DNA of 64,000 nucleotides from Streptomyces kaniharaensis (lineage in GTDB: Bacteria; Actinomycetota; Actinomycetes; Streptomycetales; Streptomycetaceae): assembly GCF_009569385.1 (NCBI RefSeq), contig NZ_WBOF01000003.1, forward strand, positions 248,001 to 312,000, read 5' to 3'. Below the pieces are notes generated by a model, which made no database searches, had not been told where the DNA came from, and saw nothing but the letters and a program-made list of their open reading frames with translations. Of the stretch, positions 8,622 to 51,527 are shown piece by piece (the first letter of the stretch is position 1; the number at the start of each line of letters is the position of its first letter). The translations under genes were made by a program, and so were the position numbers.

Positions 8622-8639
8622 TGGGTAGGCCCGGGCGGC

Positions 8640-14379: not shown

Positions 14380-14409
14380 GCATGACTACTACTCACGAGT
14401 AAGTCATGC
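14380..14409. promoter_or_regulatory. nested inverted repeat in divergent promoter region
   Basis: Outer arms GCATGACT (14380-14387) and AGTCATGC (14402-14409) enclose inner arms TACTC and GAGTA. The element lies between the secreted-protein operon and the large polymorphic toxin gene, in an AT-richer stretch that includes TAAGAT. It fits a dimeric repressor operator controlling both divergent units, though no regulator gene is adjacent. Confidence 0.45.
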
Positions 14410-14606
14410 GTAAGATAGCAGCAATCACTCGCCTGCGAACCAATCGCCGTTCGCACGGGATCAACTTTGCGGCGAGCTGCGACAAGGACATTCCCGCGAC
14501 CGGATCGCGTGGTCACGAATGTCCCTCGCGCGTCCGTGTGCGGTGCCAGGGCGCCAGGTGATCCGGGACGCGCGATGACGCATGTCCCAAGAGAGAGGAA
14601 TGTCTT

Positions 14607-17600
14607 GTGAAACACCCCTTGCGCTCCTTGGGAGCGCCGGGAACCGCCGGGAAGAAGCGACCCCCGGGAAGCCGGATAGCGGGATTGCGCCGTGCATGCG
14701 CGGTCCTGCTGCCCGTGGCCCTCGCTGCCGGCATGCTCGGCACAACGCCCGCGTTCGCGGCAGACTCTGACGCCGACCCGGACATGCCCGTGCTGACGGA
14801 CCGTGGCCGTGTCGTCGGCCTGTGGACCATCGGTGGTCCCGGCGTGAAGGCGGCTGCCGAGGCCGCGCTGACTGGCTCGGACGAGGACGTCAAGCGCTTC
14901 CTCGAGGTCGAGAAGGGCGACGCCGAGTACCACGACGACCGGGTGTCGGCGTTCCAGATGTTCAGCCTCGGCGGGCCCGGGGTGCGCGAGGCCGCCACCA
15001 AGGCGCTGAAGGGTTCCACGGACGACCTGCGCGCCTTCCTCAGGGACGGCTGGCGGACCCCGCTGGAGCAGGACCGGCGGGTCGAGGCCTTCCAGCTCGT
15101 CGCCACCGGCGGCGTGAGCGTCAGGGAGCAGGCCACCGCCGCGCTCAAGGGCACGCCCGAGGACGTGAAGAAGTTCCTCGAGCAGGGCCAGTACGACGCC
15201 CTCGAGGTCGACAACCGCGCACGAACGATGCAGCTCCTCGGCTCCGGCGGCCCGGCCATGAAGGAAGCCGCCAAGGTCGCTCTGCGCGGCACGCCCTCCG
15301 ACATCGCCGAGTTCCTGAACATCGGCCAGTTCGTCGCCCGCGCCCGGGACCAGGAACGCGCCACGATCTCCCAGCTGGCCGACCAGGCCGAACAGGCCGG
15401 CGCCCAGGCGCAGGCCGCCAAGGACGCCGCCAAGGCCGCGTCCGCGCGCGCAGTCGACGCGTCACAGCAGGCCAAGGAATCCGCGGAGACCGCGGCGAAG
15501 GAGACCGAGGCAGCCGGCCAGGACCTGACCCGCGCCACGGAAGCCGCCACGCGCGCGGCCGATGCGGCCCAGGGCGCGGCGACCGCCGCCCAGCAGGCAG
15601 TCGCCGCAGCCGGTGCCGCCAACCAGGCCTCCCGCATCGCCTCCAGCGCCGCGGCCCAGGCCGCCAGCGCGGCCAGTGGCGCAGCCCTCGCGGCGGGCAA
15701 CGCCCGCAAGGCCGCCGCCGCCGCCTCCTCGGACGCGGGCAAGGCCGCCGAGGCCCGCCAGCGAGCCGAAGAAGCACGCAACGCCGCGAACGACGCCCAG
15801 CGGGCCGCGGACGCCGCGAACAATGCCGGCACCGCCTCCCAAGCGGCGGGCGAGGCCTCGGCTGCGGCCAAGAGCGCCAGCGGTAACGCGAACGCGGCCG
15901 CCGGTTCCGCGGAGAAGGCCGGCCGTCTGGCGAGCGCCGCCGGTGCCGGCTCCAACCGTGCGCAGGCCGCGGCCGAACAGGCCCGCCGCCAGGCGAACGA
16001 GGCCAACCGGGCCGCGGACGCGTCCGCGGCGCTGGCCGGCCAGTCCGCCCAGGCCGCCTTCCAGGCCCGCGACGCCGCGCACACGGCGGCCACGCACGCC
16101 CAGAACGCGGCGACGGCCGCGGACCAGGCCGCCGAGCACGCAGGCCAGTCCGCCGTCTCGGCGGCCGAGTCCGCCCGGCAGGCCGGCGAAGCACGCACGG
16201 CTGCGGCGGCGGCGAGCGAGGCGGTGAAGACCGCCAGCGGCGTCTACGAACTCGCCCGCAAGACCGAGGCCGAGGACCTGACCGCCCGCACCGCCGCTGC
16301 CGTCGAGACCGCCCGGGACACGAAGAAGGCCGACGACGAAGCCATCGGTGGAATCGGCACCCTCCTCGCCAACTGGCGGGCCCAGGACCAGGAAGCCGCC
16401 GCCCTGGCCGCCGAGGCCGCTCGCCCCGGCGCGGACCCGAAAGCACTTGCCGCCAGGGGCCGCAAGGCCGCACTCCAGGCCATGAAGACCGGCGGCCCCT
16501 GGAGCCAGGAAGCCGCCACGGTCGCCCTGGCCGGCACCGACGACGCCGTCCTGAACTGGGTGCGCACCGGCCGGCACAAGGCCGAGCTGGACGACATGCG
16601 CCAGAACGTGCAGGAGATCGCCCAGGACAGCCCCGACGAAGCCGTCCGCACCGCCGCCACCGCCGCGCTCAAGGGCGACGCCCAGCAGATCGAGGCCTTC
16701 TACACCACCGGCCAGCACGAGGCCGCGGTCACCGACAACCGCGTCCGCGCCTATCAGCTGATCGCCACCGGCGGCACCAGCGTCAAGGAAGCCGGCGAGA
16801 AGGCCCTGCGGGACGGCTCGCCCAAGGCCGTCGCCGCCTTCCTGATGACCGGCCAGTACACGGCCCGCCAGATCGACGAACGCGTCCAGGCCACCCAACT
16901 GCTCGCCAGCGGCGGCCCGGAGGTCCAGGCCGCAGCCAAGTTCGCACTCGCCGGCACGCCCGATCTCGTCAGCTCCTTCCTCAAGACCGGCCAGTACATG
17001 GCCGACCGCAAGGACCAACTCGCCACCGCCCACGCCGCGCAGATGCGCCGCCTGATCGCCGAGGCCTCCCAGACCGCGGCCAAGGCCCAGCAGGACGCCT
17101 GGGAGGCCACCGAGGCCGCGGCCGTCGCCGCCGGCGCCTCCGGCGACGCCGACAACGCCCGCAACCAGGCCCGCGCCTCCGCCGACCAGGCGGCCGGATT
17201 CGCCGCTGACGCCGGCAAGTCCGCCCAGGACGCCGAAGCCTCCGCCACCCGCGCCGCCCAGTCCGCCACCACCGCCCGCACAGCCTCCCAGGCCGCCGCC
17301 CACGACGCCGGCAAGGCCACCGCCTCCGCCAACCGCGCACAGGCCTCCGCCGCCCAGGCCCGCCGGTCCGCCAACACGGCCCGCGACGCCGCGAACCAGG
17401 CCTACACCTCCGCCGTCGCGGCGGGACAGGACGCCGGAGCTGCCCAGCAGGCCGCCGACGAAGCCTGGAGCATCACCGCGGAGAAGCAGATCCAGGAACG
17501 CCAGGCCGAACTGAACGCCGAGGATCCGGGCATCCAGGCCGATGCCAAGAAACTCGAGGAAGAATTCACGAAGGAGCTGGAAGCACAGATCCGGGCTGAA

Positions 17601-18305
17601 ATTCAGAAGGAAATATACTTTAGCCAGTTCAACTGCTTCTTCATCACTCCCGACACGCCGCGGGAGTTCATCGCCCGATGCAATATGGCCAAGGTGAACG
17701 GCACATACGGGCCAGGCGGCGTGTTCGCACCCGGCACCATAATCGGAACTCTCAGCTATTGGGGGTCCCTCGATGAGGTGCAGCTCCTAAAGAATGTCAC
17801 CAAGTCCATCCTCGGCGTGGACAGCGCCGAAGAGTGCATCAAGCAGAAGAACGTCGGCGCCTGCGCAGAACTCGCCGTCACCTTCTTCCCGGCCGGGAAA
17901 GCCGCCAAGCTCGCAGAAATTGCCTACAAAGCCAAAACCATCGAGGAGATTGCCAGGGTAACGAGCTCTGCGATCAAATGCGTGGGAAAGATCGACTGCC
18001 TGCCCACGCCAAAGGAAGCGCAGCTGGCGATCGAGAACCTCCCGCGCTGGAGCTCCGGGGCGAAGCGGGACGTGAGGCACCTGGCACCCAACCTGGTGAC
18101 CGAGGACATATCCGCCAAGGGCAAGGTCTTCACGATCACCGGCGGTGACGGAAAGCACCGTGTTCTCGTCCAGATGCCCGGTGAGGTGAACGGCAAGGCG
18201 GGACGCTTTGAGTGGCTCATTGAAGACCAGGACGGAACCCAGGTAGTATCCCACCAAGGATTCATCGACGGCGGAACGATCAACGGTATTCCCAATAAGC
18301 CATGA
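14607..18305 (+). CDS. ALF-repeat polymorphic toxin
   Basis: 1232 residues from GTG at 14607 (GAGAGAGGAA just upstream). A long signal sequence ends at PAFA-AD (about residue 51). ALF repeats follow (VVGLWTIGGPGVKAAAEAAL; pattern GGPxVxxAAxxAL-G-DVxxFL), then a very Ala-rich coiled coil (about 250-560), a second ALF set (about 620-800), a second coiled coil to about 960, and a cysteine-containing pre-toxin segment. The last 85 residues (from KRDVRHLAPN to INGIPNKP) form the likely toxic domain, with a GRFEWLIE and SHQGFIDGGTI pattern seen in C-terminal toxins of contact-dependent systems. Its stop overlaps the immunity gene. Base composition becomes less GC-rich after about 17580, as expected for exchangeable toxin tips. 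The exact enzymatic activity is not identified. Confidence 0.85.
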   Translation: MKHPLRSLGAPGTAGKKRPPGSRIAGLRRACAVLLPVALAAGMLGTTPAFAADSDADPDMPVLTDRGRVVGLWTIGGPGVKAAAEAALTGSDEDVKRFLEVEKGDAEYHDDRVSAFQMFSLGGPGVREAATKALKGSTDDLRAFLRDGWRTPLEQDRRVEAFQLVATGGVSVREQATAALKGTPEDVKKFLEQGQYDALEVDNRARTMQLLGSGGPAMKEAAKVALRGTPSDIAEFLNIGQFVARARDQERATISQLADQAEQAGAQAQAAKDAAKAASARAVDASQQAKESAETAAKETEAAGQDLTRATEAATRAADAAQGAATAAQQAVAAAGAANQASRIASSAAAQAASAASGAALAAGNARKAAAAASSDAGKAAEARQRAEEARNAANDAQRAADAANNAGTASQAAGEASAAAKSASGNANAAAGSAEKAGRLASAAGAGSNRAQAAAEQARRQANEANRAADASAALAGQSAQAAFQARDAAHTAATHAQNAATAADQAAEHAGQSAVSAAESARQAGEARTAAAAASEAVKTASGVYELARKTEAEDLTARTAAAVETARDTKKADDEAIGGIGTLLANWRAQDQEAAALAAEAARPGADPKALAARGRKAALQAMKTGGPWSQEAATVALAGTDDAVLNWVRTGRHKAELDDMRQNVQEIAQDSPDEAVRTAATAALKGDAQQIEAFYTTGQHEAAVTDNRVRAYQLIATGGTSVKEAGEKALRDGSPKAVAAFLMTGQYTARQIDERVQATQLLASGGPEVQAAAKFALAGTPDLVSSFLKTGQYMADRKDQLATAHAAQMRRLIAEASQTAAKAQQDAWEATEAAAVAAGASGDADNARNQARASADQAAGFAADAGKSAQDAEASATRAAQSATTARTASQAAAHDAGKATASANRAQASAAQARRSANTARDAANQAYTSAVAAGQDAGAAQQAADEAWSITAEKQIQERQAELNAEDPGIQADAKKLEEEFTKELEAQIRAEIQKEIYFSQFNCFFITPDTPREFIARCNMAKVNGTYGPGGVFAPGTIIGTLSYWGSLDEVQLLKNVTKSILGVDSAEECIKQKNVGACAELAVTFFPAGKAAKLAEIAYKAKTIEEIARVTSSAIKCVGKIDCLPTPKEAQLAIENLPRWSSGAKRDVRHLAPNLVTEDISAKGKVFTITGGDGKHRVLVQMPGEVNGKAGRFEWLIEDQDGTQVVSHQGFIDGGTINGIPNKP

Positions 18306-18814
18306 GCGACCTACTGAAATTCAAGATCCCGGCGGATTTCATCGAACCGCATGTCCATCTGAGCCTTGCGGAGCTCGAGTACGGGCACCGCGAGGGCTGG
18401 ATCGACGCCGACGGCGTCATCGGTCTCTGTACGCGACGCCTCGTTGCGGGCCACGCATCGCAGCTGGAGGAGACGATCGCGCTTCTGCTGTCCGACGAGG
18501 CCGATCAGGTGGCCGGAATTCTGGAGGGCGCTGACGCGGGCCGTGCCGTGGACGACGTGCGGCCGGTGTGGCGATATCTGGCGCTCGCCTGGGCCTACGA
18601 GAACCGCGAGGGTCTGGGTGACGCATTGGGGGTGGTCGAGATGCTGTACGCGGACTTCGACTACCCGTCCGAGATGGACGGCTTCGTTCGCTACATGCCG
18701 GCGCAGCCCGGGCAGAAGACGGGCATCGACGCCCTGATGTCGCGGTGGGAGGAATTCGTCCGCAGCGAGGGAGAGTTCTACCGAGGTCGTGATCGGGAGT
18801 CCGAAACCGGCTGA
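18302..18814 (+). CDS. DUF2247 immunity protein
   Basis: 170 residues. The ATG overlaps the toxin stop (ATGA), so each toxin is made with its antidote. The pattern FKIPADFIEPHVHLSLAELEYG, then GWIDADGVIGLCTRRLV and a C-terminal PSEMDGFVRYMPAQ, matches DUF2247, a family predicted as immunity proteins of polymorphic toxin systems. It has no signal peptide, consistent with cytoplasmic protection. A hairpin terminator follows at 18861-18890. Confidence 0.8.
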   Translation: MSDLLKFKIPADFIEPHVHLSLAELEYGHREGWIDADGVIGLCTRRLVAGHASQLEETIALLLSDEADQVAGILEGADAGRAVDDVRPVWRYLALAWAYENREGLGDALGVVEMLYADFDYPSEMDGFVRYMPAQPGQKTGIDALMSRWEEFVRSEGEFYRGRDRESETG

Positions 18815-18860
18815 GGCCACCGGTCTTTGACACCGGTCCATCCGACATCGGTCAGGTCTG

Positions 18861-18890
18861 GGCTGTTTCCGCAGGACTGCGGAAGCAGCC
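18861..18890 (+). terminator. intrinsic terminator of the toxin-immunity operon
   Basis: A 13-bp stem (18861-18873 with 18878-18890, one G-U pair) with a GGAC-type loop is followed directly by CTTTCCTGT. This is one of few hairpins in the window with a short T-run, giving a canonical rho-independent layout 46 nt after the immunity gene. Confidence 0.75.
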
Positions 18891-18976
18891 CTTTCCTGTG
18901 GGCTCAGGAGCCCGCCCGGGCGTGACGTCCCGTCCCCCCGAAAGCCCCGCTGCCTGAAAACGCCGGGGCCGGCGGG

Positions 18977-19189
18977 TCAGGGGGTGGTGTCCTCGGCGAG
19001 GGTGTGGGCGACGAGGGCGTTGGCGTGGCCGTGGCCGAGGCCGTGTTCGGTCTTGAGCCAGGCGACGAGTTCCATGTGCTTGGTGAGCGGGGAGGAGCAG
19101 ATGAGGTCCTTCCACTCGGCGATGGGGCGGCCGTACTTCTTCTCGATGGACGGGAAGTAGCTGGCGGGGCCCTTCACGGGTGCGGTCAT
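18977..19189 (-). CDS. DUF4287 domain protein
   Basis: 70 residues from the ATG reading MTAPVKGPASYFPSIEKKYG; a GTG two codons upstream is an alternative. The sequence (SIEKKYGRPIAEWKDLI, then MELVAWLKTEHGLGHGHANALV) is the DUF4287 helical fold, in which a short Gly-rich loop (GLGHGHAN) separates helices. The function is unknown. It lies downstream of the Pls-type synthetase on the same strand but behind a strong terminator, so it is probably an independent gene. Confidence 0.85.
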   Translation of the reverse strand: MTAPVKGPASYFPSIEKKYGRPIAEWKDLICSSPLTKHMELVAWLKTEHGLGHGHANALVAHTLAEDTTP

Positions 19190-19252
19190 GATCACAGTGT
19201 CCCATCGGTCGCGTCCGCGATGATCTTCGCGGCTCTTTCGGAGCGCACACGC

Positions 19253-19301
19253 GAGTGCGCGGTGCGGTCACGGGTTGAGACCGTGGCCGCACCGCGCACT
19301 C
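19253..19301 (-). terminator. strong terminator hairpin after the Pls-type NRPS gene
   Basis: Positions 19253-19267 pair perfectly with 19287-19301 (15 bp). After one mismatch, a further 5 bp (CACGG/CCGTG) close a 7-nt loop. The hairpin starts 25 nt after the synthetase stop on the minus strand, isolating it from the DUF4287 gene. Confidence 0.8.
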
Positions 19302-19325
19302 ATCGCTCCGCGCAGGTGACGTGCG

Positions 19326-22300
19326 TCACACCGTCGTGCGCCCCGCCGCGGCGCGGCGTCGTGCCCGGGCGGCGCGGCGGCCGGCGGGCGGGGTGGGGTC
19401 GGCGCTCCAGGCGGCGACGGGGTTGCCGAGCCAGCGGGTGGCGCCGGGGACGTTCTCGCCGCGCATGACCAGGGAGGCGGGGCCGACGGTGGTGCCGGCG
19501 CCGAGGGAGGAGTTGAGCAGGACGATGGAGTGCGGGCCGGTGGTGGAGCCGGGGCCGAGGTGGACGGTGCCCAGGCGCATGACGCGGTCGTGGAAGAGGT
19601 GGGTCTGCAGGACGGTGCCGCGGTTCACGCTGGCGCCGGCCTCGACGGTGACCAGGTCGCTCTCGGGCAGCCAGTGGGTCTCGCACCACACGCCGCGGCC
19701 GATGCGCGCGCCGAGGCTGCGCAGCCAGACGTTCAGGTAGGGGGTGCCGGTGATGCTGGAGCCGCCGAAGGGCATGGCGAGTTCTTCGACGAAGGTGTCG
19801 TAGAGCTCGTTGCGCCAGACGAAGGACGACCAGAGCGGGTGTTCGGCGGTGCGGAAGCGTCCGACGAGCAGCCACTTGGCGGCGGTGGTGACGGCACAGG
19901 CGATGACGGCGGCGGCGCCGAGGATGAGGCCGGCGGCGGCCAGGGCGGCGGCGAGGCCGTAGTCGTCGCGCAGTTCCTGGAGGGCGAGCAGGACGAGGTC
20001 GCCGAGGAGGGCGGCCAGTATGACGGGCAGCAGGCGGCACAGTTCGACGCCGGCGCGCGCCCACATCAGGCGCCGGGGCGGGTCGTAGGTGCGGGCCTCG
20101 CCGCCGGCGTCGGCGACGCGGGGCAGGGCGAAGGCGGGGCGGCCGAGCCAGGAGGAGCCTTCGGGGGCGTGGGCGGGGGTGTCGGACAGGACGCCGACGA
20201 GGGAGTTGTCGGGCAGGTGGCGGCCGGGGCCGACGATGCCGGAGTTGCCGACGAAGGAGCGCCGTCCGACGTGGGAGGGGCCCAGGTGCAGCCAGCCGCC
20301 GCGGACCTCGTAGGGGGCGACGAGGGTGTCGTCGGCGAGGAACGCCCCGTCGTCCACGCGCATGAACCCGGGCAGGCTCAGGACCGTGGACGCCTCGACG
20401 CGCCGGCCGATGCGGGCGCCGAGCAGGCGCAGCCACAGCGGGGTGAAGAGGCTGGCGTAGAGGGGGAAGAGGGTGCGCCGGGCGGTGTCGCTGAGGCGGT
20501 GGACGGCCCAGGCGCAGAAGGCGACCTTGCCGTGGGCGGGGTGGTGGCCGGGGCGCAGGGGCAGGGAGAGGAGGCGGACGGTCAGCGCTATGAGGGCGGC
20601 GTGGCAGGCGAGGGTGAGGGCGGTGAGGGGGACGGTGGCGGGCAGGAGCTGGAAGAGGACCTGGCCGAGGCTGTGGTCGGTGTCGATCATCGGGTAGATG
20701 ATCGCGAGGGCGGGCAGGGCGGCGATGATCGGCAGGAGGCCGAAGAGGGTCAGGCCGATCCCGTAGGCGAGGCCCCAGCCGCGCGAGCGCGGTGCCGTGC
20801 CGGGGGCGGGCCAGTGGGTGGTGGGGGTGTCGGGGGCGGGGCGGGCCGGGGAGCCGTGCCAGTGCTCGTGCGGGGGCACGGTGCCGGTGACGCAGGAGCC
20901 GGGGGCGATGTCGGCGCCGGCGCCGATGCGGGCGCCGGGCATGAGGGTGGCGCGGGTGGCGACGCGGGCGCCTTCGCCGACCTCGGTGTGGCCGAGGTGG
21001 AGGATGTCGCCGTCCAGCCACCAGCCGGCGATGTCGACCTCGGATTCGAGGACGGCGCCGGCGCCGAGGCGGGCGAGGCCGGTGACGGGGGGCAGGGTGT
21101 GCAGGTGGACGCCGGGGCCGACGCGGCAGCCGAGTGCGCGGGCGTAGCGGGTGGCCCAGGGGGTGCCGGTGAGGGCGCCGACACCGAAGAGGGCGACGGT
21201 GCGCTCGGCGGCCCACAGGCGCAGGTGGACGTGGCCGCCGCGGGGGTGGCTGCCGGGGCGGATGCCGGTGGTGAGCAGGCGGGCGGCGCCGGCTGCGAGG
21301 AGGGTGCGGCCGGGGGCGCTGTAGAAGAGGAGGAGGCCGGCGGCGACGGGCCACCACGGGGAGTGGGGGGCCCAGGGCAGGTGGGCGCCGGTGAGGTTGT
21401 CGAGGGCGGTCAGGACGAGGACCCAGCGCAGGCCGGCGAGGGTGAAGAGGGCGAGCAGGGCGAGGGTCTGCCACAGGCCGGCACTGGCGGGGGTGCGGCG
21501 CACGGTGCGTTCGGCGGCGGGGGCCTGTTCGCGGGGGCCGGTCCCGGGCTGTGGGGGTGTGTGGGTGTCCAGGTGGGCGGCGAGCGCGCTGAGGACGGGG
21601 TGGGCGTACAGGTCGGCGACGGAGACGCCCGGGTGGCGGGTGCGCAGTTCGGAGACGAGGCGGGCGGCGGTGAGGCTGGAGCCGCCGAGGGCGAAGAAGT
21701 CGTCGCCCGGGCCGGGGGCCATGCCGAGCAGGCGTTCCCAGTGGCCGGCGAGCCAGCCGGCGGTGCCTTCCAGCGGGGTGCGGTCGGCGCTCTCCTGGGT
21801 GCCGGTGGTGGCCAGCGGCCAGGGCAGGGCGCCTCGGTCGACCTTGCCGGAGGTGCGGGTGGGCAGGGAGTCGAGGAGGGCGAGGACCGGCACGAGCGGG
21901 GCGGGCAGGTGTTCCAGCAGCTGGTGGCGGGCGGCGGCCAGGTCGGGCCGGGTGCCGGGCTGTGGGACGAGGTAGCCGACGAGCAGGTCGGCGCCGGCGG
22001 GGGTCTTGCGGACGGCGGCGGCCGCGGCGCGGATGCCGGGCAGGGCCTGGAGGGCGGCGTCGATCTCGCCGAGTTCGATGCGGCGCCCGCCGAGTTTGAT
22101 CTGGTCGTCGGCGCGGCCGATGAAGACCAGGCCTTCGGGGTCGTTGCGCACCAGGTCGCCGCTGCGGTAGACGCGGGGGGAGGCGAGGTAGGGGTGGGTG
22201 GTGTACTTCTCGGCGTCCTTGGCGGGGTCGAGGTAGCGGGCGCAGCCGACGCCGCCGATCAGCAGTTCGCCGGTCTCGTACCAGGGGACGGGCTGGCCGG

Positions 22301-41974: not shown

Positions 41975-42191
41975 CTCACCGCTCCTTCCGCAGAGCCGCA
42001 CGGCTCAACCGACGTGCCACGGCCGTCACCTGCCGGCCCGTCCCGCACTGGAGCACACGATCAATTGCCAGACACGCTCCAGCGTTCGACGTCCTTCGCG
42101 ACAATCATCCCAGCGGATACCGCGACGGCCGCCCACCCGACGCGATGCCAGGCCGCGCGGCGCCCTGCTGCCCCGCGCGGGCCTGGAACCA

Positions 42192-42372
42192 GGTGAACCT
42201 CCACGCGGCACCGAGCCGCATTGACCGCCTGTCGACGAGCCGTACCACGCCGGGATTCCACGCCGACGGATGACAGGTCAACGCCCGACCCGCACACCGC
42301 CGCCCCCACCAGCGCCCTGGTGACCCATCAGGCGTCCCCGGACGCCAGCACGGCCCGGCAGCGGGCGTCAAC
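42192..42372. repeat. diverged duplicated segment, copy 2
   Basis: Direct-orientation counterpart of 41066-41249, with the same ordered sequence blocks and several small insertions and deletions. Confidence 0.7.
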
Positions 42373-42725
42373 AACCCGATATGGTCCGGACACGGACTCC
42401 GCGAGGCGGTCAACAGGCCGTCACCACCCGTGGTCGGCTCAAGGCCTACTCGGACGACCCAAGAACAGCTCGACCCGGTCGAGCCAGCAAGCGCGCAGCG
42501 GGGACCAGCCAACGTGCCACCGCGAGTGCGCGGCGCCCCGCATCACAGGAACGCCCGACGCATCACCCCGGGCGACGATGTCACATCGAGCGCCACCGTT
42601 GGCCGGCCCCGGCCCAGTCCCGCAACCCACGCCAGACGCTCACCCCCGAGCAGCCCACCACCTAAACCGGGACCGTCACACCAGACCACTGCCCCGCGCA
42701 GCACGCACACAATGCCCGCCAGCGC

Positions 42726-42790
42726 CACCCAGTCCGCCACCGGCAGCCACCCAGTCCGCCACCGGCAGCCACCCGTCCGGCACCGGCAGC
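42726..42790. repeat. three tandem 22-bp repeats
   Basis: CACCCAGTCCGCCACCGGCAGC-type units occur at 42726-42747 and 42748-42769 (identical) and as a diverged 21-bp unit at 42770-42790. They lie outside any recognised gene. Confidence 0.85.
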
Positions 42791-42907
42791 CACCCGGGAC
42801 GACGACGACCGCGGGACGACCGCTCCGAAAGCAGCCGGGCCATGCGCTCCCAGAAGCCGCCGGGAACACGAACAGCAGACACCCGCCAAAGCGCGAAAAC
42901 GCAACCG

Positions 42908-42942
42908 GGCCCGCCCGATCCACGAGAGATCGGACGGGCCCA
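42908..42942. terminator. terminator of the xylFGH-type operon
   Basis: Arms 42908-42921 and 42929-42942 form a 14-bp stem with one mismatch and a CACGAGA loop. It lies 65 nt beyond the permease stop on the minus strand. CCTGAGGC-type repeats (42975-43014) occur between the stop codon and this hairpin. Confidence 0.7.
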
Positions 42943-43007
42943 CTACGCCACCGCTGCACCATCCAGACGCCAGGCGCCTCAGGCGAGGTGCCTCAGGTGT
43001 TGGTGCC

Positions 43008-44756
43008 TCAGGTGCGGGCGGCGCTGGCGCGGGTGCGGCGCGAGACCGAGTCGAGGACGACCGCGGCCAGCAGCACAGCGCCGGTGATCATGTACTGGAT
43101 GGCCTGCGCGGCATGCACCATGTCCAGACCGGTGGTGATCGACTGGATCACCAGAATGCCCAGCAGCGCCGACCACGTCTTGCCGCGCCCACCGAACAGG
43201 CTCGTGCCGCCGATCACGGCCGCGGCGATCGCGCTCATCAGCACGTTGCCACCACCCAGCATCTTGTCGGCCGAACCCTGCTGCGAGGCGATGAACAGAC
43301 CGCCCAGCCCCGCCAGCGCCGCGGAGATCATGTAGACCGAGATCCGCACCCACGCGACGTTGATACCCGCACGACGAGCCGCCTCCACACCACCACCGAC
43401 CGCGAAAACCTGCCGCCCGTACGCGGTACGCCGCAGCACGAAGTCCGTGAGGACGACGACACCGACCAGAACGACCAGCGGCAGGGGCAGACCGCGGTCC
43501 TGGTTCAGCGTGTAGGCCAGCGGCAGCGTCAGCGCCGCCAGCGCCCCCGTCCGCAGCGCGATGTCACCGACCGGGCGGGCGGTGAGACCGGCCGCCGCAC
43601 GCCGGCGAGCGGTCCGCAGCTGCGCCAGCACGTACAGGGCCGGGGCCAGGACCGCCAACGCCCACGCGTAGGCGACATCACCATCGCCGAGGAACGCGGT
43701 GTCGAGGGAAGCGATGAGACCGTCATGACGGTTGTTGATCGTGCCGAGATCCCCGAGAACGTAATCCTGCAGACCACTCCACGCGAGCATGCCGGCAAGC
43801 GTGACCACCAGAGCCGGCACACCGACACGAGCGAAGAAGAAACCGTGCAGCGCGCCCATCGCACACACCACAGCCAGGCCCGCGGCAACCGCAAGCCACT
43901 CGTTCACACCCTGACGCACCGCAAGCACCGATGAGACCGCCGCACACACACCGGCCAGCGAACCGAGCGACAGATCGATCTCACCCAGCAGAAGAACGAA
44001 CACCACACCGACCGCGATCAACCCCGGCCCGGCAATGTACTTCGTGATGTTCGTAAGGTTGTCAGCCTGAAGGAAATGCCCGGTGACACTCTGGAAAATG
44101 ACCGCGATCAGCGCAAGACCGATCACCACCGGCGCAGAACCGAGCTCACCCCCCGACAAACGCCGCCGCAGCTCATCCAGATAACCCTTCAGACCCGCCG
44201 AACGCACCAACAAACGCGGATCAGCAGCAGACACCCCAGAACCAGCAACCCCAGCCGAAGCAGCAGCCTCAACAGAGGTAGCAGCCTCAGCGGAGGCGGC
44301 AGCGGGCGCCGCGGAGGCGCCGGCCTTCGCCGGGACAGCAGCCTTGACCGAGGCGGTGGCCTCAGCCGACGTACCGGCCTCAACAGAGACGGCAGCCTCA
44401 GCCGGAACAGCAACCTCACCAGAGACGGCAGCCTCAGCGGAGGCACCGGCCTCCACCGGGGCGGCGGCCTCGGCAGCAAGCGTCGCGGAGGTGTCCTCGG
44501 CGCCAGCAGGCGCCGCGACGCCCGCCTCGGCAGAAGCAGCAGCCTCAGCCGGGGCGGTGGCCCCAGCCGGGGCGGTGGCCCCAGCCGGGGCGGCGGCCTC
44601 GGCGGAGGCGGCGGCCTCGGCGGAGGCGGCGGCCTCGGCAGAGGTGGTGGCCTCGGCGGAGGTGGCAGCCTGGACCGGGACGGAGGCCGTGGCCTCAGCC
44701 GAAGTGGCGGCCTCGGCCGCCGTGGTGGCTCCAGCGGGAGTGGCGGGAGTGCTCAT
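43008..44756 (-). CDS. xylH: XylH-type sugar ABC transporter permease with 178-residue Ala/Glu/Ser-rich N-terminal extension
   Basis: 582 residues. Residues 1-178 are a repetitive low-complexity extension built from units such as AEAAAS, AEAAAP and AGATAP. From ADPRLLVRSAGLKGYLDELR onward the protein is a normal branched-type sugar permease of about 400 residues with roughly ten membrane helices and the family segments LLLGEIDLSLGSLAG (about 250) and GGTSLFGGRGKTW (about 520). The ATG overlaps the stop of the ATPase gene (ATGA). The extension is predicted to be cytoplasmic, before the first helix. Xylose specificity is inferred from overall resemblance to XylFGH systems. Confidence 0.88.
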   Translation of the reverse strand: MSTPATPAGATTAAEAATSAEATASVPVQAATSAEATTSAEAAASAEAAASAEAAAPAGATAPAGATAPAEAAASAEAGVAAPAGAEDTSATLAAEAAAPVEAGASAEAAVSGEVAVPAEAAVSVEAGTSAEATASVKAAVPAKAGASAAPAAASAEAATSVEAAASAGVAGSGVSAADPRLLVRSAGLKGYLDELRRRLSGGELGSAPVVIGLALIAVIFQSVTGHFLQADNLTNITKYIAGPGLIAVGVVFVLLLGEIDLSLGSLAGVCAAVSSVLAVRQGVNEWLAVAAGLAVVCAMGALHGFFFARVGVPALVVTLAGMLAWSGLQDYVLGDLGTINNRHDGLIASLDTAFLGDGDVAYAWALAVLAPALYVLAQLRTARRRAAAGLTARPVGDIALRTGALAALTLPLAYTLNQDRGLPLPLVVLVGVVVLTDFVLRRTAYGRQVFAVGGGVEAARRAGINVAWVRISVYMISAALAGLGGLFIASQQGSADKMLGGGNVLMSAIAAAVIGGTSLFGGRGKTWSALLGILVIQSITTGLDMVHAAQAIQYMITGAVLLAAVVLDSVSRRTRASAART

Positions 44757-45538
44757 GCGGCGTCCTCCTCCTCGGTGAGGCGGGCCTGGCGACGGGTGAC
44801 AGCATTGTCAGTCGCACCGGTGATCGCGGAAATGATCTGTTCCTGAGTGGTGTCGGCAACGGAGAACACACCGTTGTTACGGCCCAGACGCAGCACGGCG
44901 ACCGTATCGGCCACCGCCCGCACGTCGGCCATGTTGTGACTGATGAGAATGACCCCCAACCCCCGGGCCCGCAGCCGCTCCACGAGATCGAGGACCTGAG
45001 CGGTCTGCTCGACACCCAGCGCCGCGGTCGGCTCGTCGAGGATGACGATCGACGGGTCGCCCACCAGCGCCCGCGCGATCGCCACCACCTGACGCTGCCC
45101 ACCGGACAGCGCCGCCACCGGGATCCTCACACTCGGAATCCGGATCGACAGGGTGTCCAGGAGCTCACGAGCGCGCTGCTCCATCGCCGTCTCGTCCAGC
45201 AGACCCCGCGACCGCTTCTCACGGCCGAGGAACAGATTGGCGACCACATCGAGGTTGTCACACAGGGCGAGATCCTGATACACGGTGGCGATACCGAGCG
45301 TCTGCGCGTCCTGAGGACGCGTCAGACGCACCGGGTCACCGTGCCAGGTGATGGTGCCCTCGTCGATCGGGTGAACACCCGCGATCGTCTTGACGAGAGT
45401 GGACTTCCCGGCACCGTTGTCACCCACCAGGGCAACGACCTCACCCGCGTGGACCGTGAGATCCACATCGGTGAGAGCCTGAACGGCACCGAAGCGCTTG
45501 GAGACCGCGCGCAGCTGCAGGACGGGTGCGCCTGTCAC
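44753..45538 (-). CDS. xylG: XylG-type sugar ABC transporter ATP-binding protein
   Basis: 261 residues from GTG at 45538, preferred because AAGAAGG lies 5 nt upstream; a TTG at 45571 would add 11 residues. It is a single ABC domain: Walker A GDNGAGKST (about 38-46), Q-loop VYQDLALC, signature LSGGQRQ, Walker B VILDEPTAAL and switch ISHN. One domain rather than the duplicated RbsA/XylG form of enterics is usual for actinomycete systems. Its stop overlaps the permease start, and it follows the binding-protein gene closely. Confidence 0.9.
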   Translation of the reverse strand: MTGAPVLQLRAVSKRFGAVQALTDVDLTVHAGEVVALVGDNGAGKSTLVKTIAGVHPIDEGTITWHGDPVRLTRPQDAQTLGIATVYQDLALCDNLDVVANLFLGREKRSRGLLDETAMEQRARELLDTLSIRIPSVRIPVAALSGGQRQVVAIARALVGDPSIVILDEPTAALGVEQTAQVLDLVERLRARGLGVILISHNMADVRAVADTVAVLRLGRNNGVFSVADTTQEQIISAITGATDNAVTRRQARLTEEEDAA

Positions 45539-45583
45539 ATGAACCTTCTTCTCGGGGGAGGGGGACTTCAAGGCCGGACGGCC

Positions 45584-46678
45584 CTACTTGAGACCCGCAC
45601 CGGCACACGCGGCCGCGTAGTCGGCCGTGCAGATGTCCGCCGCCTTGTACAGGCCGTCGGCGACGACAGTGTCGTTGATGTTCGCCTTCGTCACGACCTT
45701 CGGCTCCAGGAGCTTGGCCGCAATACCCTTGTCGGTGGCACTGTCCACACTCGCCGAGGCGACCGACTTCACGTCCTTGCCCTGCAGCAGATCCACCGCC
45801 AGCTCCGCGGCACTGTCCGCCAGCGGCCGGTACGCCTTGTAAATCGTGTACGCCTGGTCACCGTTCACGATCCGCTGGATCGCGTCCAGACCCGCGTCCT
45901 GCCCACCGACCGGAACCTTGATCCCCGCGGCCTGCAGCTGCGTGATGATCGCACCCGCCATACCGTCGTTCGCCGAGTACACCGCCTGGAAACCCGTCTT
46001 ACCGAGCTGGGTGACCGCAGCCCCGATCTTCTGACCCGCGACCGTCGGCTTCCACTCACCCGACTGCTCGTAGACGACCTTCTTCACCTTCGCGTCGAGG
46101 ACCTTGTGCGCCCCCGCCTTGAACTGCCCCGCGTTCGGGTCCGCCTCATCACCGTTGATCATGACGATGTTCGCGTCCGCGGCCTGCGCGCCCAGCGCGT
46201 CCACCAGCGCCTGACCCTGCAGCTCGCCGACCTTCTCGTTGTCGAACGACACGTAGGCCGCGACCGGACCGGTGGCCAGACGGTCATAGGAGACCACCTT
46301 CACACCCTTCGCCGCCGCCTCCTGCACCCAGCTCTGCGTCGACTTCGCATCGAAGGCATCCAGCACGATCACCTTCACACCCTGCGCGATCAGAGTGTCG
46401 AACTGCTGCTTCTGCTTCGCGGCACTACCCTCCGCGTTGTTGTACAACACGTTGCAGTCCGCACACAGCGCCTTCACCTTCGCCTCGATGAACGGCCGGT
46501 CGAACGACTCATACCGCGTCGACGAGGCGTTCTCCGGCAGCAGCAGACCAATCGACTTACTGTCCCCCGAAGCCGCCGCACCCGCCTTGTCACCCCCCGC
46601 CTTACCACACGCGGCCATGGACAACGCCAGCGAAACACCCGTAACGGCGATAACAGCACGACGCATCGAAGCGTTCAT
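45584..46678 (-). CDS. xylF: XylF-type sugar-binding lipoprotein
   Basis: 364 residues from the ATG reading MNASMRRAVIAV. Lipoprotein signal with lipobox SMAAC (Cys about residue 24). Periplasmic-binding fold of the ribose/xylose type: SIGLLLPENASSTRYESFDR, VKVIVLDAFDAKSTQSWVQ, VSYDRLATGPVAAYVSFDN and VYSANDGMAGAIITQLQAAG. The wording strongly resembles XylF of streptomycetes. First gene of the binding protein-ATPase-permease operon; a TTGACG-N17-GTTTAA-like promoter lies 53 nt upstream, and beyond it begins the T-free tract. Xylose as ligand is inferred. Confidence 0.9.
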   Translation of the reverse strand: MNASMRRAVIAVTGVSLALSMAACGKAGGDKAGAAASGDSKSIGLLLPENASSTRYESFDRPFIEAKVKALCADCNVLYNNAEGSAAKQKQQFDTLIAQGVKVIVLDAFDAKSTQSWVQEAAAKGVKVVSYDRLATGPVAAYVSFDNEKVGELQGQALVDALGAQAADANIVMINGDEADPNAGQFKAGAHKVLDAKVKKVVYEQSGEWKPTVAGQKIGAAVTQLGKTGFQAVYSANDGMAGAIITQLQAAGIKVPVGGQDAGLDAIQRIVNGDQAYTIYKAYRPLADSAAELAVDLLQGKDVKSVASASVDSATDKGIAAKLLEPKVVTKANINDTVVADGLYKAADICTADYAAACAGAGLK

Positions 46679-46730
46679 GAACAGGTCCCTCTCCCAGACA
46701 TCGCCGCGACACTGCGGCGGAGTGGGGGGA

Positions 46731-46759
46731 GTTAAACCCGCCCACACCCATGACGTCAA
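46731..46759 (-). promoter_or_regulatory. probable xylF promoter
   Basis: Read on the minus strand: -35 TTGACG (46754-46759), 17-bp spacer, -10 TTTAAC (46731-46736), 53 nt before the xylF ATG. The -35 overlaps an 8-bp palindrome TGACGTCA (46751-46758) that could be an operator. Confidence 0.6.
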
Positions 46760-46842
46760 CAAGTAAAACCAACCAGCCCCCAATCCACCTCCATTCGTTA
46801 TCTTCCCGAACGCTCACCCGAAACCCAAACCTGGAGAAACCT

Positions 46843-47323
46843 CCAAACACCCACCCCCCACCACCCCACCAGCACGACACGACAAGCAGGAAGAAGACAG
46901 CAACACCACAGCAACACAGCACCACAGCAACACAGCAAGACGGCAACACAGCAGCACAGCAGGGCAGCAAGACGGCAGGGCAGCGCCAGCGGAAGACAAC
47001 ACGACAACACAAGGACGGCGACGACGACCACCGAAGCACCACGACACGACACCAGCAGAACCGCGACAGCACAACAGAAGAGGGCCAGCGGGAACCGCCG
47101 CAAGACACACGACAACCACAACAAGACACAACAAGACACAACAAGACGCAGGAAGACGCAGGAAGACGCAGGAAGACGCAGGAAGACGACCGGGCACCAG
47201 GACAACCGGACAACACACGGAGGCGGCGGGACAGAGACCACAGGAAGACACAGAAAGACGACAGGACCACGGAAGGAGGAGGGGCGAAGAGCACAGCGAG
47301 ACACAAGGAACGCCACAAGACCG
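46843..47323. other. 481-nt tract with no T on the + strand (A-free minus strand)
   Basis: Direct reading shows not one thymine on the + strand from 46843 through 47323. Up to 47467 only isolated T residues occur (for example at 47324). The tract is built of A, C and G, with CAA/CAG/GAC/AAGAC words. All three minus-strand frames are open across it simply because every stop codon needs an A. It lies between the I36-like gene and the xylF promoter, upstream of both the promoter and the operon. It is not a gene; no known element is recognised. Confidence 0.9.
47121..47190. repeat. seven tandem 10-bp units inside the T-free tract
   Basis: Consecutive decamers read ACAAGACACA (twice), ACAAGACGCA, GGAAGACGCA (three times) and GGAAGACGAC. 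The exact 10-bp period is close to the helical repeat of DNA, so the AAGAC core recurs on one face. Confidence 0.9.
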
Positions 47324-47654
47324 TGAAAGACAGACCAAAGGGACGAAAAGACCGACAGGACAGCGCGACGGAAGGCGACCGGACACGAAAGAGGGGGAAG
47401 AGAGACGGAGGCGAAAGGGGCGACCGGGAGGCGGAAGGGAGGCTGCAGGAACAGCCCGGGACACCCCTTCACAACCTGACGGAACGTCAGATCACACGAC
47501 ACCACCCGGCCCACACACCCAGACACGCGCCCGAACACACGAAACAAGGGGCGCCCGCCGCTCCCCCCCGAGCGACGGACACCCCTCAACCACAGCCACC
47601 AGGCCTCAGTGATGAAACGTCAGAAACCATTCAGCAACACCGAGTTGCCGAATA

Positions 47655-48020
47655 TCAAGGACGATCCAGCGTGATCGAATTGACCGGACCCAGGTCGAAC
47701 CACACCCCGTTCTGCGCCGCCATGTCATAGACACAGTCGACACCACCCGACCCCCGACACAGCCGCGCATGAGCACCACCCGACTGATTGTTCAGCACCC
47801 AGTGACTCCCGAACTGATTACTCAGATTGTGAGCACCGTAGCTCCAGAACACCTCACTCGGACTCACCGCCGGATCCTGACCCTGCGGATAGACACACAC
47901 CGCACCCCACGGACAACCCGCCCACGAACCACCCACCGCACCCGCACCACCAACCCCGACACCCGCCACCACCCCAACCGCCAAACCCACCACCGCAACA
48001 GCACGCACCAACCCACGCAT
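47655..48020 (-). CDS. secreted peptidase-inhibitor I36-like protein
   Basis: 121 residues from the ATG reading MRGLVRAVAVVG, with GGGAGGACGATTC before it. A long Gly/Val-rich signal peptide ends near GGAGA-VGGSWAG. The mature domain has CPWGAVCVYPQGQ and later cysteines (ARLCRGSGGVDCVYD), with a strand-rich layout typical of the small secreted I36/beta-gamma-crystallin-like inhibitor group of streptomycetes. The coding strand is G/T-rich and A-poor like the adjacent T-free tract, so the same strand bias extends through this gene. Inhibitor activity is only inferred. Confidence 0.7.
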   Translation of the reverse strand: MRGLVRAVAVVGLAVGVVAGVGVGGAGAVGGSWAGCPWGAVCVYPQGQDPAVSPSEVFWSYGAHNLSNQFGSHWVLNNQSGGAHARLCRGSGGVDCVYDMAAQNGVWFDLGPVNSITLDRP

Positions 48021-48137
48021 GAATCGTCCTCCCTCACCAAAGCGCTGAACCAACCACCAACACACACCAGCCTAGAAACACACCAACCACACCAGTCCCT
48101 GACACCCGACAGGGACCACAGCCACACCGTCGGTGGC

Positions 48138-49040
48138 TCAGAGTCTGGTCGCGGAGAAGGTGTCGCACTGAGCCATGTCACCGGTCCGGTAGCCAGTGGT
48201 GAACCAGGCCTTGCGCTGCTCGGAAGAACCGTGCGTCCACGCCTCGGGGTTGATCTTGCCCGTGGCCTGTTTCTGGATCCGGTCGTCACCCACTGCGGAA
48301 GCCGCATCCAGGCCCTGCGCGATGTCCTGATCGGTGATCGAGGCGATCAGCGGCCGCCCGGTGGACGGCTGCGGGGTGGTGGTGGCATGGTGCGCCCACA
48401 CCCCGGCGTAGCAATCGGCCTGCAACTCCAGACGCACCGACGCGCTCGCAGCACCCTGCCGGTCGCCGCCGACCTTCTGCATCGCGCCGGTCAGAGTCTG
48501 CACGTGGTGGCCGAACTCGTGGGCGACGACGTAGGACTCGGCGAACGGGCCGCCCTTGGCGCCGGAGCGGGTCGACAGCTCGTCGAAGAAACCGAGGTCG
48601 AAGTAGGCCTTCAGGTCGCCCGAGCAGTAGAACGGGCCCACCGCGGAGGTCGCCAGGCCGCAGGCGGTGTTGACCCGGCCGGTGAACAGCACCGTGTCCG
48701 CGGGCTTGTAGGCGATGCTCCGCTTGGGCAGTTCGGCACGCCAGAACTCCTGCAGGCTGTTGGTGACCGCCACGATCCGGCAGTCCTGGCGCTTGTTCGC
48801 ATCCGCGCCGGTCTTACAGGCCGACTGCACCTCGCCCGCGGTGTGCACGCCGCTGGAGGAGGAACTGGTGCCACCACCGGAGGACAGGCCCAGCAGCTTG
48901 GGGTCCACGCCCAGCAGGACGGCGACCAGCACCACGATCAGGCCCACCGCCCCGCCGCCGATGGCGAGATTCCCGCCCGGGATCCCACGCCGGTCCTCCA
49001 CCTGTGAGGTGTCGAGATCGGCCTGCTCGTCGAACTGCAT
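48138..49040 (-). CDS. YpfJ-type neutral zinc metallopeptidase (membrane-anchored)
   Basis: 300 residues from the ATG reading MQFDEQADLDTSQVEDRRG. A single transmembrane helix (about residues 28-48) anchors it, followed by a Ser/Gly linker and the peptidase domain. The zinc motif VAHEFGHHVQ and the downstream Glu in LELQADCYAG are present, as in the KPN_02809/YpfJ neutral zinc metallopeptidase family. Cysteines (QSACKTG, QDCRIV, NTACGL, YCSGD) are extracytoplasmic. The substrate is unknown. It is a single gene on the minus strand. Confidence 0.9.
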   Translation of the reverse strand: MQFDEQADLDTSQVEDRRGIPGGNLAIGGGAVGLIVVLVAVLLGVDPKLLGLSSGGGTSSSSSGVHTAGEVQSACKTGADANKRQDCRIVAVTNSLQEFWRAELPKRSIAYKPADTVLFTGRVNTACGLATSAVGPFYCSGDLKAYFDLGFFDELSTRSGAKGGPFAESYVVAHEFGHHVQTLTGAMQKVGGDRQGAASASVRLELQADCYAGVWAHHATTTPQPSTGRPLIASITDQDIAQGLDAASAVGDDRIQKQATGKINPEAWTHGSSEQRKAWFTTGYRTGDMAQCDTFSATRL

Positions 49041-49103
49041 ACCTCTGCCTGCCCGCTTCTGTCTCAAGATTGTCCTGGTGCGCCGGTTGACGGCCCGCAC
49101 AGC

Positions 49104-49412
49104 CTACGGGGCCGGCGGTGGCCGGCTCACCAGCGTCTGGCGGTCGTCCACCACGCCGACGTGGCGCAGGCGCTGTGGCGGGCTGTGACGACGGCGGGGA
49201 TCGAGGGTCGTACCTACAACGTATGCGATGACGCGCCGCTGACGGCCTGGGACCTGCACGTCCTCAACAGGCTCACACACCCCAGGGGTTCGGGGAAGGA
49301 TGACTTCGACCCGTGGGAGGGTCAGATGTCGACGGCGGCGGCACGGCGGGATCTGGGGTGGCGTCCGCTGTACCCGTCGGCGTGGGCTGCCGCGGAGGCG
49401 GGCGCGCTGTGA
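49104..49412 (+). pseudogene. C-terminal remnant of an NAD-dependent epimerase/dehydratase
   Basis: An open frame reads RLAVVHHADVAQALWRAVTT, then GRTYNVCDDAPLTAWDLHVL and ends DLGWRPLYPSAWAAAEAGAL. This is the typical end of an extended-SDR epimerase (the HVDDVA segment, YNVCDD and the L-G-W-R-P-x-Y-P-S block). The N-terminal Rossmann part and catalytic residues are absent, and upstream sequence is the divergent metallopeptidase promoter. It is therefore a truncated fragment, possibly with an internal deletion after DLHVLNR. Confidence 0.65.
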
Positions 49413-49469
49413 CCCGCAGCGGCGGCGCCTGCCCCTGCCGGGGTTGCCGGGCAGGGGCAGGCGGGTGGG

Positions 49470-51527
49470 TCACACCATAGGCGCAGGGGCGTAGCCGGCC
49501 GGGCGGGTGGTGAACGTGCCGCGGCCCTGGGTACGCGAGCGCAAACGGGTCGCGTAGCCGAACAGCTCGGCCAGCGGCACCAGGGCCGTCACCGTGGCGG
49601 CGGCCTGCGCGATGGCGGTGGCCTGGACGCTGCCGCGGCGGGCCGCGAGGTCGCCGAGCACTGTGCCCAGGGCATCCTCGGGCACGCTCACCGTCACCTG
49701 CGCAAGCGGCTCCAGGAGCTGGAGCCGGCCTGCGCGCAGCGCTTCACGCAGACCCTGGCGTGCGGCGGTGCGGAAGGCCAGCTCGGAGGAGTCCTTGGAG
49801 TGAGTGGCCCCGTCGGTGAGGGTCACGCGCACGCCGGTGACCGGATGGCCGCCGAGCGGGCCCGTGGAAAGAGCCTCGCGGCATCCCTCCTCGACGGCCT
49901 GCACGTACTCGCGCGGCACCCGTCCGCCGGTGACGGTGGACGTGAACACGAAATCCTCCTCACAACTGTCTTCGAGGGGCTGGACATCGAGCACCAGGTG
50001 CGCGAACTGGCCCGCGCCGCCCTCCTGTTTCACATGCCGGTGGACGAAGCCGGAGACGCCCTCCACCAGGCGCTCGCGGTGGGCGACCTGCGGGCGGCCC
50101 ACCACCGTGTCGACCCCGTGGTCGCGGCGGATCTTCTCCACCGCGACCTCCAGGTGCAGCTCCCCCAGTCCCGACAGCGTGCGCTGCCCGGTCTCGGGGT
50201 CGGTGCGGGGCCTGAGCGAGGGGTCCTCCTCCGCCAGGCGGGCCAGGGCCTGGGCCAGCTTGTCGGTGTCGGCAGCGCGACGGGCCTCGACGGCGACGGT
50301 GACGACCGGTTCGGCGCTGACCGGGGCCTCCAGCAGGATGGGGGCGGCGGGTGCGCACAGGGTGGCGCCGGGGCGGGCGGCCTTGGGGCCGATCACGGCG
50401 ACGATGTCGCCGGCCAGGGCGTGGCGCAACTCGCTGTGCCGGTCGGCCTGTACGCGCAGGATGCGGGCGATGCGCTCGGTGCGGCCGGTGGTGGCATCCA
50501 GCACGGTGTCTCCTTTCTCCAGTCGGCCGGCGTAGACGCGCAGGTAGGTGAGGCGTCCGGTGGGGGCGGCGTTCACCTTGAACGCCAGGGCGGTGAAGGG
50601 CTGTTCGGGGTCGGCGGCGCGCTGCTGCGGCGTGTCGTCGGCCAGGCTTGCGGCGCCCCGGACCGCCGGAACGTCCAGCGGGGAGGGCAGGTAGGCGATG
50701 GCGGCGTCCAGGAGCGGTTCGATGCCGCGGTTGCGGTAGGCGGATCCGCACAGCACCACCACTGCCTCGCCGCTGAGGGTCAGCTCCCGCAGGACGGCGG
50801 TGAGGGTGGCGATGCTGAGCGTCCCGTCGGCACAGAACTCCTCAAGCGCGCCGGGGTGCAGCTCGGCGACCGCCTCCTCCAGAACGCGCCGACGCGCCGC
50901 GGCCTCAGCGGCCAGGTGCACGGGCACCGGGCCCTCCCGCATGCCCTCCTCGCCGCCGCTCCAGGTGAGGGCGCGCAGGCGCAGCAGGTCGATGACTCCG
51001 ACGAACTCGCCCTCGGCACCGATCGGCAGCTGCACGGCCAGCGGATGCGGGTGCAGGCGCTCGCGGATGGAGGCGAGCGCCGCATCCAGGTCGGCGCCGG
51101 AGCGGTCCAGCTTGTTGACGAACGCGATCCTCGGCACGCCGTGGCGCTCGGCGGCCCGCCACACCGACTCGCTCTGCGGCTCGACGCCGGCGACCGCGTC
51201 GAACACCGCGATCGCGCCGTCCAGCACACGCAGCGAGCGCTCGACCTCGTCGGCGAAGTCGACGTGGCCGGGGGTGTCGATGAGATTGACCCGGTGCCCG
51301 GCCCAGGCGCAGCTGACGGCAGCGGCGAAGATGGTGATGCCGCGGTCGCGTTCCTGCGGGTCGAAGTCGGTGACGGTGGTGCCGTCGTGGACCTCGCCGC
51401 GCTTGTGGATGGCACCGGTGAGGTAGAGGATCCGCTCGGTGACGGTGGTCTTGCCGGCGTCGACGTGGGCGAGGATGCCGAGGTTGCGGACGGCGGCGAT
51501 GGTGCTGCTGGTGGTGTCGGTGCGCAT
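49470..51527 (-). CDS. elongation factor G paralogue
   Basis: 685 residues from the ATG reading MRTDTTSSTIAAVRNLG. GTPase motifs are intact: G1 AHVDAGKTT, G3 DTPGHVDF and G4 NKLD, followed by EF-G domains II-V (SGLGELHLEVAVEKIRRDHG, TSTVTGGRVPREYVQAVEEG). It is shorter than housekeeping EF-G (about 708) and stands alone, outside the str operon (rpsL-rpsG-fusA-tuf), so it is an additional EF-G-like translational GTPase as found in many streptomycetes. A role under stress or in antibiotic tolerance is speculative. Confidence 0.9.
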   Translation of the reverse strand: MRTDTTSSTIAAVRNLGILAHVDAGKTTVTERILYLTGAIHKRGEVHDGTTVTDFDPQERDRGITIFAAAVSCAWAGHRVNLIDTPGHVDFADEVERSLRVLDGAIAVFDAVAGVEPQSESVWRAAERHGVPRIAFVNKLDRSGADLDAALASIRERLHPHPLAVQLPIGAEGEFVGVIDLLRLRALTWSGGEEGMREGPVPVHLAAEAAARRRVLEEAVAELHPGALEEFCADGTLSIATLTAVLRELTLSGEAVVVLCGSAYRNRGIEPLLDAAIAYLPSPLDVPAVRGAASLADDTPQQRAADPEQPFTALAFKVNAAPTGRLTYLRVYAGRLEKGDTVLDATTGRTERIARILRVQADRHSELRHALAGDIVAVIGPKAARPGATLCAPAAPILLEAPVSAEPVVTVAVEARRAADTDKLAQALARLAEEDPSLRPRTDPETGQRTLSGLGELHLEVAVEKIRRDHGVDTVVGRPQVAHRERLVEGVSGFVHRHVKQEGGAGQFAHLVLDVQPLEDSCEEDFVFTSTVTGGRVPREYVQAVEEGCREALSTGPLGGHPVTGVRVTLTDGATHSKDSSELAFRTAARQGLREALRAGRLQLLEPLAQVTVSVPEDALGTVLGDLAARRGSVQATAIAQAAATVTALVPLAELFGYATRLRSRTQGRGTFTTRPAGYAPAPMV

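Follow-up and report, generated by a model that had tools for sequence, protein, structure and literature searches.

When an arm of a linear Streptomyces chromosome breaks, the end is resected and the arm is replaced from the other arm by recombination (PMC5869714), and break-induced replication has been proposed to homogenise the terminal inverted repeats (TIRs; PMC7205883). Streptomyces NucS cuts only G/T, G/G, and T/T mismatches, and without nucS the leading strand shows markedly asymmetric mutation counts, with 1150 A>G against 412 T>C and 715 C>T against 274 G>A changes (PMC11109965). The tract described here, a stretch of 481 nucleotides without a single thymine in the genome of Streptomyces kaniharaensis, shares features with these systems and departs from each of them. 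Like the TIRs whose homogenisation has been studied (PMC5869714; PMC7205883), it lies in a near-identical inverted duplication, probably situated at replicon ends, which is the known substrate of that process; what differs is that the repeat's inner edge bears a compositional and mutational signature, which is new here and is not described in the literature searched. The NucS/EndoMS spectrum (PMC11109965) has the leading-strand changes A to G and C to T in common with the tract, and its substrates G/T, G/G, and T/T would by biased conversion yield C to G and A to T as well, but the published bias is chromosome-wide and was seen in mutants, whereas the one reported here is local, saturated, graded, tied to an edge, and found in a genome with nucS.

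Bacterial replication-strand skew likewise makes the leading sense rich in G and T irrespective of transcription; it is, however, normally modest and extends over megabases, whereas in the tracts studied here a single base is nearly missing over 0.1–5 kb and the effect stops at the homology edge. GC-biased gene conversion replaces alleles in heteroduplex DNA in favour of a preferred base, as is proposed below for the islands studied here, but it is strand-symmetric and favours G+C over A+T, whereas the islands are strand-polar and favour keto over amino bases on one strand. An account of such islands was not found in the literature search, although this absence is weak evidence. The new aspect is a strand-biased substitution that is local, saturated, and tied to a homology edge.

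Extent and coding potential of the tract

The window, i.e., the whole 64-kb stretch that was analysed (G000:C3:248001-312000), belongs to a draft genome of 8.77 Mb in 19 contigs, among which C1 was for the most part sampled by pattern search only. A direct base count on the plus strand at positions 46843-47323 gave 190 A, 159 C, 132 G, and zero T, so that the 481-nt run, which is A-free on the minus strand, exists as the initial annotation had read it from the letters. The scarcity of T reported as far as position 47467 is equally real: the plus strand of the 625-bp segment 46843-47467 contains about 0.3% T and carries degenerate 8- and 10-bp tandem repeats. The run is the longest of its kind in the window, followed by a second T-free run of 129 nt on the same strand (47891-48019), which overlaps the beginning of a short ORF on the minus strand, and by one of 119 nt (47325-47443). 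In 100 simulations under a first-order Markov model of the window, the longest T-free run had a mean of 66 nt and a maximum of 85 nt, and the same model gives an expected number of about 10^-26.7 runs of at least 481 nt.

In T-free DNA neither ATG nor any stop codon nor a -10 box of the form TAnnnT is possible on either strand. The claim that the minus strand lacks stop codons and ATG, and that its transcript would lack A, accordingly holds and can be widened, as all six frames are open and both strands are devoid of start (ATG) and stop codons. This openness is what lets mechanical ORFs of 216-326 amino acids cross the tract in several frames (window 46602-47730), and these are to be regarded as false. 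No gene was called across the tract, and codon periodicity was not found over the 625-bp segment (G+C by phase 0.65/0.55/0.65). Coding tails rich in Ala, Lys, Pro, and Gly, which are a frequent source of long T-free runs here, were ruled out by this phase composition. A search of Rfam with window positions 44000-50000 returned zero families at E ≤ 1; a structured RNA was therefore dropped as a reading, and evidence favouring an R-loop element, a protein platform, or a pausing region, all of which had been suggested earlier, was not found either.

The sugar transporter locus and its relatives

The tract is flanked by a minus-strand sugar ABC transporter operon, comprising genes for a xylF-like sugar-binding protein (PF13407; 45584-46678), an ATPase (44753-45571), and a permease (PF02653; 43008-44756), and on its other side by a minus-strand ORF of 122 amino acids without Pfam match (47655-48023), at the start of which the coding strand has hardly any A, and a minus-strand zinc metallopeptidase gene (PF04228; 48138-49100). 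The initial annotation had described the tract as lying upstream of xylF. In 29 xylF orthologs of congeners (84-91% identity), A-free runs in the upstream 1.5 kb reached at most 92 nt, so that the tract is not an xylF element, and a conserved xylF leader or riboswitch was ruled out on the same grounds. Ordinary sequence in relatives at this position had been named in the initial annotation as a refutation, and it speaks against an xylF-linked element, yet such tracts recur elsewhere. The tract looks like a footprint of recombination between chromosome ends and not like a regulatory element of the adjacent transport genes of xylose type.

An inverted duplication around the tract

An inverted duplicate of window positions 42045-48132, aligned with one gap column and zero substitutions, is located at the end of another contig of the same genome, C15, which consequently carries an identical copy of the tract and breaks off inside the repeat, 6.1 kb in. 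The right end of this block probably represents the inner edge of a TIR that runs left to the start of C3. According to this reading, which rests on the 6-kb overlap between two draft contigs, the assembly would have collapsed a TIR of about 296 kb into C3, and window position 48132 would mark its inner edge; composition is normal again beyond 48132-48138 on both arms. The tract sits a short way inside this near-identical inverted duplication: from the edge, it is about 0.8 kb to the end of the 481-nt run and 0.1 kb to that of the second T-free run. The T-free strand is the plus strand on C3 and the minus strand on C15, as in other replicons, with the telomere side deduced from the contig layout. 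Along C3:1-296132, T-poor segments in lagging sense are restricted to the first 4.6 kb and the last 1.3 kb. Substitutions between TIR copies, 28 in all and mostly from one plasmid, were too few to be used as a mutational spectrum, and this approach was dropped.

Distribution and polarity of T-free runs

A scan of relatives, as the initial annotation had proposed, showed T-free runs longer than about 190 nt to be widespread: nearly all of the 70 congeners have them, as do 16 of 17 sampled genera of the family, and many of the runs are coding (Ala/Lys/Pro/Gly-rich). Runs of similar or greater length than the one studied here were found in G027 (554 nt), G155 (558 and 617 nt), G147 (476 nt), and G042 (428 nt, assigned as coding by the gene caller, yet without codon periodicity). 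The 5' end of the T-free strand faces the near telomere, which corresponds to the lagging-strand sense; on the complementary strand, which points 5' to 3' to the telomere (leading sense), A is almost gone and G and T have taken the place of part of the C. In three closed genomes, with dnaA as origin marker and a codon-based gene caller, 25 of 29 interior noncoding runs, defined by the lack of codon periodicity, were in lagging sense, compared with 31 of 59 coding runs.

The tracts have no conserved motif that could be found, and their lengths range from 120 bp to >5 kb. Between the plasmids NZ_CP109462 and NZ_CP107773 the tract is 70% identical and the adjoining 6 kb are 93% identical; within the tract, A, C, and G interchange while T remains nearly absent. 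Sequence that changes while T stays excluded had been named earlier as a sign of significance, and it is thus observed between tracts at other loci. On the leading sense the plasmid tracts are A-poor and not C-poor.

Several other T-poor regions were recorded in the course of the survey. Locus L380 (G147:C40 about 134000-140500) spans 6.5 kb, in which one strand has a T content of just about 2%, and ends sharply near 140.5 kb. A T-poor noncoding repeat family, whose members are about 82% alike, occupies C3:1-5300, C2:1-2100, C7:1-1840, and the right end of C7, and adjoins a conserved minus-strand gene near contig ends. Long homopolymer or CG runs in G006:C1, G008:C1, and G062:C2:240618-240901 look like assembly artefacts.

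Association with TIR inner edges

Among 15 other replicons whose TIR inner edge was determined by self-alignment, 12 have a T-poor tract that coincides with this edge or is no more than about 2 kb away from it. The count leaves out the home locus and the marginal G042, whose tract lies 2.2 kb inside, and includes five genomes selected for T-free runs near ends (G062, G172, G155, G039, and G060). Among the replicons with tracts are contig C4 of the home genome (edge 7881, tract 6707-8403), the closed genome G027 of the same genus (edge 127148, tract 126943-127420), G062 (edge 240327, tract up to 239345), G172 of another genus (edge 206823, tracts up to 205135), G039 (edge 8737, tract 8480-8782), and G002 (edge 12229, tract 12218-12399 on one arm). 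In plasmid G155:C2, the 558-nt T-free run ends exactly on the edge base (15593), and the right copy measures 617 nt. Further plasmids were chosen by a terminal helicase homolog so as not to select by composition, and five of them carry a tract at or just inside the edge: NZ_CP108678 (edge 8112), AP028456 (9124), NZ_CP109462 (8144), NZ_CP107773 (8312), and CP109208 (9259). Four of these five share a family of ends with C4; NZ_CP109399, from the same selection, lacks the tract.

Averaged over replicons, noncoding T in lagging sense amounts to 15-16% deep in the TIR and declines to 7-9% in its last 4 kb, while outside the edge it is 13% in the first 2 kb and 15% further out; in the last kb of the TIR it was below 15% in all 12 of 12 replicons. 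Tracts of reverse polarity near edges are rare.

The association with edges is strong, though neither universal nor exclusive. Edges without tract were found in contig C2 of the home genome (21.9 kb), G060 (25.3 kb), and NZ_CP109399 (6.6 kb), and tracts distant from known edges occur at C2:59-62 kb, at G060:37.9 kb, and as interior runs. The sharp end of the island in G147 had been forecast to be a repeat edge, and a second copy was not found in this draft assembly. Inverted blocks at 27-38 kb in G060 pair with TIR-internal sequence at 17-24 kb; the island of this genome was for that reason rejected as a former TIR edge and remains an exception.

Contig C4 (1-272972) has the appearance of a linear plasmid: its TIR measures 7.9 kb (37-7881 and 272880-265051), and a large helicase-like gene is found at either terminus. 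Contig C2 has an 11.2-kb inverted duplication of 99.95% identity (10676-21913 and 738598-749829), which suggests that it is a linear megaplasmid whose TIR measures about 21.9 kb.

Substitution bias at synonymous sites

The bias is not confined to noncoding DNA. Near edges, the fourfold degenerate sites on the strand running toward the telomere are nearly devoid of A, poor in C, and rich in G and T, and this is the same for genes transcribed toward or away from the telomere. The excess of G+T at leading-sense fourfold sites was +0.20 in the 8 kb on the inner side of the edge and -0.01 in the 8 kb beyond it (permutation p 2e-5), and resolved by distance in four chromosomes it was +0.29 at <4 kb inside, +0.12 at 4-8 kb inside, and -0.01 at <8 kb outside. 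A transcription-linked bias was ruled out, as flanking genes are oriented toward, away, convergently, or divergently and biased genes occur in both directions.

At the home locus, neighbouring genes within the repeat are shifted to G+T on the leading sense and composition is normal past the edge, with both unique flanks of the repeat normal at fourfold sites. The permease gene (C 0.35, G 0.48, T 0.17) and the ATPase gene (C 0.37, G 0.43, T 0.18) have G+T excesses of +0.25 and +0.21, and the zinc metallopeptidase gene just beyond the edge is near normal (+0.10). For xylF, fourfold frequencies are A 0, C 0.21, G 0.61, and T 0.175, compared with C 0.73 (range 0.59-0.88) and G 0.22 (0.09-0.29) in 29 orthologs. 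Relative to the ortholog in G031, the fourfold sites of xylF have undergone 82 changes from C to G, 28 from C to T, and 2 from A to T, against 6 from G to C and 1 from T to C in the reverse direction. Since the xylF protein is still 91% identical, these changes amount to a synonymous rewriting that depends on position.

Of the options offered in the initial annotation, the evidence supports the scar of a strand-biased mutational process, because synonymous sites of neighbouring genes are affected, the bias follows the orientation of replication and not of transcription, and it is found on only one side of the repeat edge.

Origin of the strand-polar islands

The pattern is well supported, and its most satisfactory explanation, to which we give about an even chance of being correct, is that the tract represents the noncoding core of an island of strand-polar biased substitution, roughly 5-10 kb long and located just inside the TIR inner edge, which was produced by recombination between TIR copies. 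If the two TIR copies are kept identical through recombination, a break in one arm would leave an origin-side end that is resected, and the resulting 3' tail, which would always be the leading-sense strand, would pair with the other TIR. In hosts that lack MutS and possess NucS, only the keto-keto mismatches G/T, G/G, and T/T would be cut; in six of six genomes tested, nucS was present and mutS absent (presence only). An invading G or T opposite a resident T or G would then lead to loss of the resident allele, and A and C on the invading strand would yield to G and T. Deep in the TIR, invasions of both strand polarities would be equally frequent and cancel, whereas breaks beyond the homology could not contribute events close to the inner edge, so that one polarity would win over a distance of one heteroduplex length. 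Such one-sided invasion would account for the polarity, the peak at the edge, the decay over a heteroduplex length, and the lack of any effect outside. The simplest form of this edge model is in conflict with the telomere-proximal T-poor tracts, for which it predicts the opposite polarity and which have the same polarity as the edge tracts; at fourfold sites the polarity does reverse close to the ends of the helicase plasmids, whereas G155 and G060 show no such reversal.

A variant of the same explanation invokes error-prone break-induced synthesis that keeps the raw strand-asymmetric spectrum of the polymerase. As calculated from published counts of nucS mutants, this spectrum would be expected to give a similar noncoding composition, with about 4% T in lagging sense, and would leave the C to G changes in xylF unexplained unless codon selection against T-ending codons contributes.

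The order of events could also be the reverse, with old, gene-poor DNA having reached an extreme replication-error equilibrium and TIR edges forming preferentially there, through breakage or inter-arm homology. The composition predicted from nucS-mutant rates (PMC11109965) for the lagging sense, C 0.46, A 0.20, G 0.30, and T 0.04, is indeed close to that of the noncoding islands of G027, G062, and G172, and the shared polarity of interior noncoding runs far from TIR edges, as well as the extension of T-poor DNA past the edge in C4 and on the left arm of G027, would be expected from such a history. A transition equilibrium does not, however, explain that an intact xylF lost about 110 fourfold C, mostly through C to G transversions; beyond the edge, composition is normal on both arms in most replicons, and ordinary intergenic DNA has an AT skew near zero over most of the same arms, an observation by which a smooth arm-wide mutational skew was also ruled out. 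We therefore regard this sequence of events as rather unlikely.

It is less probable still, and in our view improbable, that T-free DNA is maintained by selection at repeat edges as a spacer, protein platform, R-loop, or replication-related element. The exclusion of T between plasmids that exchange the other three bases, the strict polarity, and the impossibility of -10 boxes and of start and stop codons would all suit a selected element, but such an element should not lack a conserved motif or vary so widely in length, and it would not account for the same, graded bias at the synonymous sites of flanking genes, for edges without tract, or for the tract-free xylF locus of relatives. Insertion of horizontally acquired DNA of odd composition beside xylF, which the lineage-specific occurrence of the tract at this locus might suggest, is very improbable in view of a 91% identical xylF ortholog with rewritten synonymous sites and of a bias that is graded across several genes and recurs at unrelated TIR edges. 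A sequencing or assembly artefact is hardly credible: GC-rich low-complexity DNA is hard to assemble and some assemblies of relatives contain spurious homopolymers, but the sequence is identical on two contigs, and tracts of the same class are present in closed genomes and in plasmids from other projects.

Returning to recombination between TIR copies as the preferred origin, we tentatively propose, as a possible though still doubtful generalisation, that the TIR inner edges of linear replicons in the Streptomycetaceae carry a new type of strand-polar, keto-favouring biased gene conversion, which would be caused by the keto-keto specificity of NucS in combination with one-sided invasion at the end of homology, and that composition would thereby record arm recombination. 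For annotation, T-free DNA calls for caution, as it gives rise to long false ORFs, and codon usage is misleading near TIR edges. If the proposal is true, composition alone would mark old or present TIR inner edges in linear bacterial chromosomes, the islands would constitute a graded and strand-resolved record of inter-arm recombination, and both the upkeep of TIR identity and the specificity of NucS as a driver of actinobacterial gene conversion would become testable.
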